From Wenyingzhuangia heitensis (GTDB lineage: Bacteria; Bacteroidota; Bacteroidia; Flavobacteriales; Flavobacteriaceae), in assembly GCF_011762155.1 (NCBI RefSeq), contig NZ_JAASQL010000001.1, positions 620,001 to 684,000 on the forward strand: a stretch of DNA of 64,000 nt. Reading direction: 5' to 3'. Position numbers and translations under genes: made by a program. Under the pieces are notes generated by a model. The model did no database searches, was not told where the DNA came from, and saw nothing but the letters and a program-made list of their open reading frames with translations. Below, piece by piece: positions 7,728-59,077 of this stretch. Position 1 is the first letter of the stretch, and each line of letters starts with the position of its first letter.

Positions 7728-7766
7728 TCAAAGGGGATCAAAATATTAAATTTTGATCCCCTTTGA
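7728..7766. terminator. Two-way terminator between GreA-like and helicase genes
   Basis: Perfect 17-base stem (7728-7744 with 7750-7766) and five-base loop, core GGGGATC/GATCCCC, with A and T runs inside the stem ends. It lies between two convergent genes and can serve both. Confidence 0.9.
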
Positions 7767-34336: not shown

Positions 34337-35347
34337 ATGAAGTTACCTATTAAAATTCACACTGTTTATTTTCTTATTTTAGGAGTGTTGTTATCATGTA
34401 AACAACCCGTAAAAAAATCTGATATGTTAATTATAGCACACCGAGGAGCTTCTGGTTATTTACCAGAACACACCTTGCCAGCCAAAGCATTGGCTTATGG
34501 TATGTTGCCCGATTTTATAGAACAAGATGTTGTCTTGTCTAAAGATAATGTTCCTGTAATAATACACGATATTCATTTAGAAACAACTACAAATGTTGCA
34601 GAGGTTTATGCAGATAGAGTTAGAGAAGACGGAAAATTTTATGTGATAGATTTTACCTGGGCAGAGTTGCAAACACTAAATGTGTCAGAAAGATTTAACA
34701 CAAAAACCAAGCAAGCAATTTATAAAGATAGGTTTCCAATACATAAATCACATTTTAAACTGCATACCTTAGCTGATGAGATTGAATTGATTCAAGGCTT
34801 AAATAAATCAATGAGAAAAGATATTGGAGTTTATGTAGAAATTAAAGAGCCTCAATTTCATAGAAATGAAGGAAAAGATATTTCTAAAATAGTTTTAACT
34901 ACGTTGTCTAATTACGGATATTCTACCCTAAAAGATAATTGTATATTACAGTGTTTTGATGCTGTAGAACTACAAAAAATTAGAAAGAAATACAATTCAA
35001 ATTTATTTTTAGTACAGTTATTTGATTCCGAATATTATGAGGGTATCCATCAACAGATGAGTTTAGAAGCAATTGTAAATAATATTGCAAAATATGCTAA
35101 TGGAATTGGACCTTCTTACAGAGAATTAATCAATAAGAAAATTAAAATTTCTGGTTTCGAGAATTTGGTAGATTATGCACATCAACAAAATTTAAAAGTA
35201 CATGCTTTTACTTTTAGAGCTGATGCTTTAGGAGGCAAGTCTACCTTTAACGAAGTTTTTAAAATAGCAGAAGATTTAAATTTGGATGGGATTTTTACAG
35301 ACCATCCAGACCAAGCAATTTCATATTTTAAGAAAAAGAATCACTAG
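34337..35347 (+). CDS. glpQ: Glycerophosphodiester phosphodiesterase, lipoprotein
   Basis: 336 residues. Splits glycerophosphodiesters into an alcohol and glycerol 3-phosphate. The signal peptide ends in the lipobox LLSC with Cys21, so the enzyme is membrane-anchored in the periplasm. The GDPD catalytic set is visible: IIAHRGASGYLPEHTLPA (the HR pair and Glu), FIEQDVVLSKDNVPVIIHD with the metal Glu and Asp and the general-base His, and VYVEIKEPQFHR. The end GIFTDHPDQAISYF matches GlpQ-type enzymes. Its 3' end overlaps the convergent ClC gene by 20 bases. Confidence 0.92.
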   Translation: MKLPIKIHTVYFLILGVLLSCKQPVKKSDMLIIAHRGASGYLPEHTLPAKALAYGMLPDFIEQDVVLSKDNVPVIIHDIHLETTTNVAEVYADRVREDGKFYVIDFTWAELQTLNVSERFNTKTKQAIYKDRFPIHKSHFKLHTLADEIELIQGLNKSMRKDIGVYVEIKEPQFHRNEGKDISKIVLTTLSNYGYSTLKDNCILQCFDAVELQKIRKKYNSNLFLVQLFDSEYYEGIHQQMSLEAIVNNIAKYANGIGPSYRELINKKIKISGFENLVDYAHQQNLKVHAFTFRADALGGKSTFNEVFKIAEDLNLDGIFTDHPDQAISYFKKKNH

Positions 35348-37127
35348 CCATAATTAATTTTCGTCTATAAGAGTTCAACAATCTAGATTTAGAGATAAAT
35401 CCAAGATATTTATCGTCTTTAATTACAGGTAAATTCCATGCAGATGTAATTTTAAATTTCTCCATAATCTCTTCCATAGAGTCATTGTCATAATCAATAA
35501 CTTCTGCTGGAGTGATCATTAAATCGGATACGACGGTACATTCATACAATTCGGTATTAAACATAATAGGACGAATGTCATCCATGTGTAAAACTCCAAT
35601 TAATTCTTTTTCGTGATTTACAACGGGAAAGTTATTTCTTTTGGATTTTACAATTGCCTTATGTACCAATTGACCTAAAGTCATATTTGGTTTTGTAATG
35701 ATAAAATCTTTTTCAACCACTTTGTCAATATCCATCATCATTAACACATTTTTGTCTTTGTCATGTGTCATTAACTGCCCTTTTTTTGCTAATTCTGATG
35801 TGTATATGTTGTGTGGAATAAACTTTTTGGTGATTAAAAATGAAATAGATGATACAATCATTAAGGGGATAAACAAATCATATCCTCCTGTAATTTCTGC
35901 GATTAAAAAAATTGCCGTCAATGGAGCATGTAAAACACCTGCCATTAAACCAGCCATACCTACCATAGCAAAATTACTTTGCGATACAGAATGTGCCACA
36001 ATTTTGGCATGATTTACAACGGTTGCCACTACGTATCCGGTTACACTTCCAATAAACAGAGTAGGAGCAAAAACTCCTCCAATTCCACCAGCACCAAAAG
36101 TAAGAGCCATTGCAATTACTTTAAAAATTATCAATCCTACTAAAAGACCAATAATCATCCAAATGGTATCTGCTTGTGTATTAAATATGTTGTTTTTTAG
36201 AATGTGAGAAGCATCTCCTCTAAGAACTGCGTTAATAGTTTCAAATCCTTCTCCAAATAAAGGTGGAATAAAATAAACAATCACACCAATTAAACTACCT
36301 CCTAATAATAATTTATACCAAGGGTTGTCAATTTTTTTAAAAAAATCGTGTGACCAAAAATAAACTTTGGTAAAGTAAATGGATATTAAAGAACATCCCA
36401 ACCCTAAAATAATATAAAAGATTACATCATTTAAATGAAAACTATCTTTAATTTCAAAGTGTAATAAAACTTCATCACCTAAGAAAAAATAAGAAGTTAA
36501 AACAGCAGAAATAGAAGCCAGTAACAAAGGAATCATAGAGACCATTGTTAGTTCTAAACTAAAGATTTCTACAGCAAAAACAATAGCAGCAATAGGAGCT
36601 TTAAAAATAGAAGCCATGGCTCCTGCAGCAGCACAACCTACTAACAGTGTTCTAGATCTTTGGTCTAAATGAAACACTCTAGCAAAGTTAGATCCTAGGG
36701 CAGAACCTGTAGCAACGGTAGGTCCTTCTAATCCTACAGAACCCCCAAAACCAACGGTAAGAGGAGCAGTAATAACGGAAGCCCACATTTGGTAACGATG
36801 CATGATGGATTCCCTTTTAGAAATGGCATACAAAGTTGCGGGAATTCCATGCCCAATTTTTTTTCTAATTATATATTTTACAACTAATAGAGTAAGAGAT
36901 AAACCTACAATTGGAAAGATAAAGTAAAACCCAATGTGTATGTCTTTGATGAATCCTGTTTTAAGAAATTCAAAAATAAAGTGAGTTAAGTTTTTAAGAG
37001 TAACAGCACCAATACCAGCTAACAAACCAACAATAGTACTTAATATATAAAGAAAGTTTTCTTGAGAAATATGTTTGTATTTCCAAATCAAAAACTGATT
37101 TAATAAACTCCTTTTTCTTTGAGGCAT
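35328..37127 (-). CDS. ClC-type chloride channel/transporter with CBS domains
   Basis: 599 residues. The membrane part (about 30-430) carries the ClC selectivity motifs: GHGIPATL (GSGIP position), GSVGLEGPT with the gating glutamate conserved (GREGP position), and GAGGIGGVFAPTLFIG (GxFxP). Conservation of the gating Glu favours an H+/Cl- exchanger. Two CBS domains follow (about 460-590; DFIITKPNMTLGQLVHKA and SDLMITPAEVIDYDNDSM), probably sensing nucleotides. It is a single gene, ending in a 20-base overlap with the glycerophosphodiesterase. The ion carried cannot be proven from sequence. Confidence 0.93.
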   Translation of the reverse strand: MPQRKRSLLNQFLIWKYKHISQENFLYILSTIVGLLAGIGAVTLKNLTHFIFEFLKTGFIKDIHIGFYFIFPIVGLSLTLLVVKYIIRKKIGHGIPATLYAISKRESIMHRYQMWASVITAPLTVGFGGSVGLEGPTVATGSALGSNFARVFHLDQRSRTLLVGCAAAGAMASIFKAPIAAIVFAVEIFSLELTMVSMIPLLLASISAVLTSYFFLGDEVLLHFEIKDSFHLNDVIFYIILGLGCSLISIYFTKVYFWSHDFFKKIDNPWYKLLLGGSLIGVIVYFIPPLFGEGFETINAVLRGDASHILKNNIFNTQADTIWMIIGLLVGLIIFKVIAMALTFGAGGIGGVFAPTLFIGSVTGYVVATVVNHAKIVAHSVSQSNFAMVGMAGLMAGVLHAPLTAIFLIAEITGGYDLFIPLMIVSSISFLITKKFIPHNIYTSELAKKGQLMTHDKDKNVLMMMDIDKVVEKDFIITKPNMTLGQLVHKAIVKSKRNNFPVVNHEKELIGVLHMDDIRPIMFNTELYECTVVSDLMITPAEVIDYDNDSMEEIMEKFKITSAWNLPVIKDDKYLGFISKSRLLNSYRRKLIMASDSFS

Positions 37128-37187: not shown

Positions 37188-37337
37188 TTAAGCTTGTACA
37201 GGACATTTTTTACAATGGTCTTTGCCCTTTTTTTTATATTTTTTGCAACATTTTTTCTTTTTGTCTTTTGCCAAATAAGCAAAACAACATCCAGTGTATT
37301 CTGGTGTTACAACCTCTTTAGTTACCTTATTAAACAT
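37188..37337 (-). CDS. 49-residue Cys/Lys-rich peptide, unrecognised
   Basis: Short open frame: ATG at 37337, TAA at 37188-37190. It has six cysteines, as two CC pairs (17-18 and 30-31) and a final HCKKC (His41, Cys42, Cys45), and nearly a third Lys, in the pattern TGCCFAYLAKD ... KKCCKKYKKKGKDHCKKC. There is no signal peptide or membrane helix. The cysteine spacing suggests a metal-binding mini-protein, perhaps metallothionein-like or a small ribosome- or metal-associated factor. It lies between ferritin and the ClC gene on the same strand as both, which makes a link to metal handling possible. Support: a TATATTTG promoter-like element and a perfect inverted repeat directly upstream, and a meaningful composition. 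No family is recognised. Confidence 0.6.
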   Translation of the reverse strand: MFNKVTKEVVTPEYTGCCFAYLAKDKKKKCCKKYKKKGKDHCKKCPVQA

Positions 37338-37338
37338 G

Positions 37339-37375
37339 ATTTGCACTGATTAACTATCTTAAAATCAGTGCAAAT
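37339..37375 (-). promoter_or_regulatory. Perfect 13-base inverted repeat at the start of the Cys-rich gene
   Basis: ATTTGCACTGATT (37339-37351) and its exact reverse complement (37363-37375), 11 bases apart. One arm ends two bases from the ATG; the other overlaps the TTTG of the promoter-like element at 37371-37378. It fits a repressor operator over the start site. Alternatively, if transcription starts further upstream, it is an RNA hairpin masking the ribosome entry site. Confidence 0.6.
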
Positions 37376-37378
37376 ATA
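37371..37378 (-). promoter_or_regulatory. Putative -7 promoter element of the Cys-rich gene
   Basis: On the minus strand TATATTTG fits the Bacteroidota -7 consensus TAnnTTTG. It lies 33 bases from the ATG (37338-37370 between). The -33 TTG is not evident in the AT-rich stretch upstream. Confidence 0.45.
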
Positions 37379-37406
37379 ATGTTTATTTTAAATAAATCTA
37401 AATTAA

Positions 37407-37925
37407 CTATTCGTTTTTAGCATTTATTTCTGTTTGTGCAACAATACTTTCTATGTCTTTGTCAAATAAATAGGTACCACTTTTATCGTCCCCAATAATT
37501 TTTAATTTATCAAGTATGGTTCTTGCCAAAGCCTCTTCTTCGGCTTGCTCTGCTACATACCATTGTAAAAAGTTATGAACAGTGTAGTTTTTTTCTTCTA
37601 AGGTTTGAAATACCAAATGATTGATGCTTTCTGTTACAGTTTCTTCACTTTCTAAGAAAAAAGTAAAAAGTTCGTGTAAATCTTTAAAAGTATCTTTAGG
37701 AGCATCTAAGCTAGGAATACTCGCTTTACCTCCACGTTCGTTTACAAACTTTACTAGTTTTAGCATGTGAACTCTTTCTTCTTCAGATTGATTGTAAAAG
37801 AATCCTGCAACACCATTATACCCTATAACCTCTGCCCATGTTGCCATAGCTAAGTATTTCATAGATGCGTTTGCTTCTAATTGTATTTGTGTGTTTAAAG
37901 CACCTTCTATAGTTTCTGATAACAT
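37407..37925 (-). CDS. ftnA: Ferritin (iron-storage protein)
   Basis: 172 residues, the normal length of bacterial ferritin. A four-helix bundle that oxidises Fe(II) and stores iron in a 24-subunit shell. Ferroxidase ligands are visible: Glu17 in IQLEANASMKY (first helix), the EEERVHM segment (Glu and His of the second helix) near residue 50, and the third-helix SEETVTES with Glu near 93, then WYVAEQAEEEALARTI in the fourth helix. No heme-binding Met of bacterioferritin is apparent. The Cys-rich small gene follows on the same strand after 69 bases, with its own promoter-like element. Confidence 0.95.
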   Translation of the reverse strand: MLSETIEGALNTQIQLEANASMKYLAMATWAEVIGYNGVAGFFYNQSEEERVHMLKLVKFVNERGGKASIPSLDAPKDTFKDLHELFTFFLESEETVTESINHLVFQTLEEKNYTVHNFLQWYVAEQAEEEALARTILDKLKIIGDDKSGTYLFDKDIESIVAQTEINAKNE

Positions 37926-59025: not shown

Positions 59026-59077
59026 TATCAAAATAAAACCCTCTAATGATTTGTCACTAGAGGGTTTTATTTTGATA
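59026..59077. terminator. Two-way terminator between brxA and the carrageenase gene
   Basis: Twenty-base perfect stem (59026-59045 with 59058-59077) and a 12-base loop, core ACCCTCTA/TAGAGGGT. It serves both convergent genes. Confidence 0.92.

Follow-up and report, generated by a model that had tools for sequence, protein, structure and literature searches.

A conserved gene of 49 codons, located just downstream of a ferritin gene in the marine bacterium Wenyingzhuangia heitensis, may encode a Fur-repressed mini-ferredoxin that releases iron from non-heme ferritin, acting in the manner of Bfd while standing outside the Bfd family; we give this reading about an even chance. The gene lies within a 64,000-nucleotide stretch of the genome (the window, to which all unprefixed coordinates refer) and, judged by its reading frame and its relatives, is real and conserved. 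It belongs to a class-wide and apparently unnamed family with links to ferritin and, probably, Fur, and the cysteine core of its product resembles, weakly but specifically, the end of the siderophore-iron reductases.

The small gene and its product

The frame that the original prediction described as a cysteine- and lysine-rich mini-gene is a genuine one (37188–37337, reverse strand), opening with an ATG and encoding 49 residues (MFNKVTKEVVTPEYTGCCFAYLAKDKKKKCCKKYKKKGKDHCKKCPVQA). The cysteines of this product are arranged as CC17-18, CC30-31, and C42-K-K-C45. Codons 30–45 (37203–37250, reverse strand) form a CC-x10-C-x2-C core that is followed by a proline, and across an alignment of 36 members, residues C30, C31, C42, C45, and P46 are invariant. 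A second candidate start codon, GTG at 37346–37344, sits inside the 3′ arm of an inverted repeat and would give a product of 52 residues. After the promoter element of one congeneric genome (G005), this GTG is the sole in-frame start among ATG, GTG, and TTG; in the sister genus (G233), the only start options are this GTG and an ATG just ahead of the cysteine core.

The peptide has a computed pI of 9.6, and an AlphaFold2 model based on just two sequences is of low confidence (mean pLDDT 64, pTM 0.40). A profile search of the PDB with the peptide returned no sequence relative up to an E value of 10, and the window protein has no match in Pfam. Since no curated cut-off is reached in either Pfam or NCBIfam, it is a conserved small protein without a family name in those collections. 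No description of the small gene was seen among the papers found in the open-access literature that was searched, which does not in itself prove the gene to be undescribed.

Distribution and conservation of the family

As expected from the original prediction, relatives are present in related genomes and the gene is under purifying selection, with a pN/pS of 0.107 over all 49 codons in six genus genomes (the count leaves aside G005, whose N-terminus does not align). The ratio is 0.51 for residues 1–14 versus 0.032 for residues 15–49, the latter estimate to be read in the light of a pS that is saturated in the core (1.05).

Sequence matches were found in 16 of 119 searched genomes: besides the genome of the window, these are six congeners and nine further genomes. 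One of the nine (G034) carries an internal stop and looks spurious. Counting the weakest matches, only some of which were inspected, profile searches at E ≤ 0.01 place the family in 62 of 397 genomes of the Flavobacteriaceae, in 57 of 296 genomes of the order (Flavobacteriales), and in 109 of 396 genomes of the class (Bacteroidia), the last representing 60 of 199 genera; in a phylum-wide draw counted in the same manner, 49 of 392 genomes match at E ≤ 0.001 and every one is assigned to the class of the window, the share of genomes from other classes in that draw not being given.

A lysine-rich CC-x8-10-C-x2-C pattern is common to the inspected relatives. Among 64 loci, 60 have the x10 spacing and 4 have x9; in L064 and L068, the other two of 66 retrieved, the motif pattern yields no ORF. 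A spacing of x8 appears in wider sets of loci (5 of 28 and 10 of 30). The N-terminal part of the family is variable, and a second subfamily carries the sequence GKKK...CPCFDLLKKVA. In many ferritin-linked relatives belonging to this second subfamily (such as L060, L066, L071–L079, and L142–L174), a DL(L/I)KKVA C-terminus is well kept; it is missing from the subfamily of the window and may act as a signal for docking or turnover.

The cysteine core

In NCBIfam, the window protein shows weak similarity to the C-terminal end of each of two models for siderophore-iron reductases (E values of 0.079 and 0.12), covering 22 of 223 profile positions in TIGR03950 and 23 of 182 in TIGR03951 and reaching the curated cut-off of neither. 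Among the 36 family members, TIGR03950 is matched at E ≤ 1 by 35 (best E 0.00036), TIGR03951 by 18 at the same threshold, and FhuF_C (PF11575) by 1 (E 0.029). Shuffling ten of the 36 members with their cysteines held fixed left 0 of 10 with a match, and thus the signal of the core exceeds mere cysteine spacing. Because the scores are weak, lie under the curated cut-offs wherever these were given, and in the window member fall far below them, the peptide is not filed as FhuF.

The motif spacing of FhuF is CC-x10-C-x2-C, and both the spacing and the flanking residues of the C-terminal [2Fe-2S] region of FhuF and the siderophore-iron reductases match those of the peptide. The peptide differs from the FhuF-type reductases, however, in being without their N-terminal remainder (49 residues, against models of 182–223 positions), in being very rich in lysine, and in its linkage to ferritin. 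The original prediction of a metal-binding peptide can be narrowed: the product is a probable binder of metal or of a cluster, its motif is FhuF-like, and the bound group would be a cluster of the kind that FhuF uses, which two papers give as [2Fe-2S] (PMC8891985, PMC12363616).

A rather different assignment, as a metallothionein for zinc or copper or else as a small nucleic-acid protein that binds zinc, would account for the cysteine- and lysine-rich make-up and for the CxxC pair, and bacterial metallothioneins are likewise small and rich in cysteine. The peptide is nevertheless set apart from them by having only four invariant cysteines and by a Fur-type box and ferritin linkage that indicate iron, which makes this assignment improbable and the metallothionein form of it disfavoured.

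Another comparison is with Bfd, whose gene typically stands beside a ferritin-type store and whose cysteine pattern differs from that of the peptide. The peptide is likewise very small and tied to a ferritin-type store, and the delivery of electrons for iron release is proposed for it here; it differs from Bfd in its partner, which is ferritin rather than bacterioferritin, and in its profile, given that neither the peptide nor any of the 36 family members matches PF04324 (Fer2_BFD) at E ≤ 1. According to PMC12363616, Bfd is a [2Fe-2S] protein that serves the reductive release of iron, is controlled through Fur, and feeds the heme of bacterioferritin. Fur control, known for Bfd, is predicted for the peptide. 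Across 40 searched genomes, that of the window included, FhuF_C reaches its cut-off in none and standalone Bfd is absent; Bfd domains occur there only in frames of at least 795 residues, and those in the window's genome are restricted to two frames, one of 846 and one of 1182 residues.

Linkage to ferritin

The original prediction placed the small gene between ferritin and a ClC gene, a position borne out by Pfam matches: the upstream neighbour, on the same strand, is a ferritin of 172 residues (37407–37925, reverse strand; PF00210, E 6.3e-35), and the downstream neighbour is a ClC chloride channel with CBS domains (35328–37127, reverse strand; PF00654, E 1.8e-80). The ferritin is acidic, with a computed pI of 4.6 and a net charge of −15 per chain.

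When loci are collected by means of the peptide, ferritin lies directly upstream on the same strand in 48 of 64, and 16 of the 64 have no ferritin in the stretch examined. As this view could be biased, a survey was started from ferritin instead, in 159 genomes with a completeness of 90% or more. Matches came from 97 of them, and the examination covered the top 81 ferritins (E ≤ 1e-54), leaving out 25 weaker rows (E 1e-36 to 1e-20). The small gene lies downstream on the same strand of 63 of these 81 best Flavobacteriaceae ferritins. The 63 comprise 23 loci found earlier beside the peptide and 40 of 58 newly fetched loci, for which linkage was defined as a small gene within 700 bases downstream; in the opposite-strand control, the same motif occurs in 1 of the 58.

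The ClC gene adjoins the peptide in 14 of the 64 loci. In six loci from three genera (L022, L025, L033, L056, L058, and L070), the small gene is followed by ClC with no ferritin in the stretch examined, and these look as if the peptide–ClC pair had been kept on its own.

A Fur-type box at the promoter

The octamer TATATTTG, read directly from the sequence (37371–37378, reverse strand), is the same in 7 genomes of the genus and in its sister genus, and we take it to be a Bacteroidota-type −7 promoter element. Just upstream of it lies a Fur-type box, TAATTTAGATTTATTTAAAATAA (37383–37405, reverse strand), with one mismatch to the near-palindromic consensus found upstream of the peptide across the family, TTATTTAGAWTNANTNNAAATAA. 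This box is present with at most 2 mismatches in 59 of the 63 ferritin-linked loci (39 of the 40 new and 20 of the 23 older) and in none of the 18 ferritins without the small gene, the best of which has 4 mismatches. In the 58 fetched ferritin loci, a reversed-sequence control found the box in 7, versus 39 in the forward direction; the 7 are partly explained by the box being AT-rich and nearly symmetric.

Scanning the whole genome at up to 2 mismatches gave 30 strand-matches versus 8 for the reversed pattern, and at up to 1 mismatch gave 12 places, with the window's box and sites ahead of FeoA, flavodoxin, and TonB-dependent receptors among them. In all, the genes that box matches adjoin in this genome include FeoA, a flavodoxin, and five TonB-dependent receptors (by Pfam), and several other matches have no recognisable iron gene nearby. 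Upstream of FeoA, a 22-base stretch (G000:C6:46492-46513) matches window positions 37382–37403 exactly and sits among four box matches at C6:45883-46515. A study of Riemerella anatipestifer (PMC5609570) gives ATTTAGAATTATTCTAAAT as the Fur box and includes gel-shift experiments for four promoters; the window's box resembles this Fur box, and its location near the promoter likewise fits a Fur regulon. The box is therefore taken as a predicted Fur site, and any of the four Fur-superfamily genes that the genome carries might encode Fur. In several relatives, a terminator-like hairpin can be seen by eye between ferritin and the box, and the peptide is therefore probably made independently of ferritin in those genomes.

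Such control bears on two further ways in which a ferritin-linked peptide might act. The first, which we regard as doubtful, is that of a chaperone, carrying ferrous iron or a cluster to or from ferritin with no passing of electrons: a small, basic, ferritin-linked peptide with four invariant cysteines would suit this task, but a loading chaperone would be expected at high iron, whereas the Fur box implies expression at low iron. The second is an adaptor through which ferritin would be marked for, or delivered to, degradation during iron starvation, its iron thereby being freed. Here, the induction in starvation that the box implies and the conserved DLLKKVA C-terminus of one subfamily both fit; this ending is, however, missing from the subfamily of the window, and an adaptor would not need four invariant cysteines, so that such a role seems quite unlikely.

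Loci outside the order

Beyond the Flavobacteriales, in the class-level loci (L207 and L210–L230), ferritin is found in only 4 of 22, with none in the stretch examined for the other 18, and the box is found with at most 3 mismatches in 16 of 22, with none in 6. A gene of the DUF4249 family, checked by Pfam, precedes the small gene in L210, L211, and L216, all from one family outside the order, and in L219 the small gene follows a gene for HmuY; receptor-like pieces beside the DUF4249 and HmuY loci find no Pfam confirmation at cut-off. By eye, a DUF4249-type gene also precedes the small gene at L213 and L228 in the same family, where the repeated gene order hints at a role in iron uptake. The scarcity of ferritins, the DUF4249 and HmuY neighbours, and the boxless loci together suggest a wider role in iron metabolism in those lineages.

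The peptide could accordingly be imagined as a general cytoplasmic ferric-reductase partner, FhuF-like, that serves siderophore or heme iron and has ferritin as one client or simply as a neighbour. The DUF4249 and HmuY loci would be accommodated by such a role, as would the resemblance of the cysteine core to siderophore-iron reductases. Against it stand the adjoining ferritin in 63 of the 81 surveyed Flavobacteriaceae ferritin loci and a peptide that has no FhuF-type substrate domain attached, and we hold this explanation to be unlikely, if worth keeping in mind.

The inverted repeat

The perfect 13-base inverted repeat of the original prediction is exact, its arms at 37339–37351 and 37363–37375 (reverse strand) pairing at 13 of 13 bases across a spacer of 11. 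The 3′ arm (37339–37351) holds the GTG codon and is separated from the ATG by one base, 37338; the 5′ arm (37363–37375) overlaps the −7 element. The whole window contains 12 distinct perfect repeats of at least 13 bases with loops of 3–30 bases, this one included, and six first-order simulations yielded 0, 0, 1, 0, 0, and 0; thus, the repeat is not due to chance, yet it is not rare in the window. Several of the window's other perfect repeats resemble terminators by eye, and longer ones are present at 59026–59077 (20 bases) and 7728–7766 (17 bases), perhaps also terminators.

Conservation of the repeat in relatives was likewise found, as it is kept in 7 genus genomes and in the sister genus, where the arms read GCACTGATT/AATCAGTGC. 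Across the 7 genus genomes, none of the 13 columns of the 3′ arm and 2 of the 13 of the 5′ arm vary, that is, 2 of 26 arm columns versus 7 of 11 in the loop. In each of the two arm changes, A becomes G, which leaves G-U pairing possible in a transcript. For the leader, taken from the base after TTTG, predicted energies range from −7.2 to −8.5 kcal/mol among the genus genomes, and the value for the sister genus is −7.1 kcal/mol.

An operator for a regulon was considered and rejected: even with 2 mismatches allowed, the core of the repeat has a single site in the genome, the one further candidate needing 3, and this uniqueness makes such an operator unlikely. Tentatively, the repeat is read as a genus-level leader hairpin in the RNA that covers the start region and possibly buries the GTG start. 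The retained G-U pairing and a loop far more variable than the arms argue for this reading, which is not proven: the leader (37310–37370) folds no better than shuffled sequences (z −0.60; 47 of 200 as good), and the overlap of the 5′ arm with the promoter and the possible start codon within the 3′ arm also constrain these bases. A local protein-binding site is the alternative to such a hairpin.

With regard to regulation, the original prediction saw the repeat and missed the Fur-type box. Its proposal of tight control holds insofar as a predicted control site does lie at the promoter, but the box is likelier than the repeat to be the main switch, as it is common to relatives across the class while the repeat is seen only in the genus and one sister genus.

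Proposed role and significance

In the proposed mechanism, the peptide would be a minimal iron-sulfur electron-transfer protein, most likely of the [2Fe-2S] type. When iron is plentiful, Fe-Fur would occupy the promoter box and keep the gene off; as iron falls, the box would be freed and the peptide made independently of ferritin. The basic peptide might then dock on the acidic ferritin shell, with its CC-x10-C-x2-C cluster passing electrons to the ferric core such that Fe2+ leaves the ferritin. This would parallel the action of Bfd on bacterioferritin, albeit on a non-heme ferritin and with a cluster motif of the FhuF type. In the genus of the window, translation or mRNA stability may be tuned further by a short 5′ hairpin that spans the start region. 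The motif resemblance, the lack of a standalone Bfd or of FhuF_C above its cut-off in the searched genomes, and the charge contrast between peptide and ferritin together favour a Bfd-like role carried out by a different small cluster protein.

Extended to the class, and held more tentatively than the reading for this gene, the proposal is that the Bacteroidia possess very small ferritin reductases: Fur-repressed proteins of about 50 residues that would unload ferritin by means of an FhuF-type [2Fe-2S] cluster, a separately arisen counterpart of Bfd to which one lineage has added a leader hairpin. Far less is understood about how non-heme bacterial ferritins give up their iron than about the Bfd route that serves bacterioferritin, and the window's genome shows neither standalone Bfd nor FhuF_C above cut-off. 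The small gene, conserved, linked to ferritin, and preceded by a Fur-type box, supplies a specific candidate that would be easy to test throughout a large class of bacteria. In these bacteria, the small gene may help to get stored iron out of ferritin when iron runs short.
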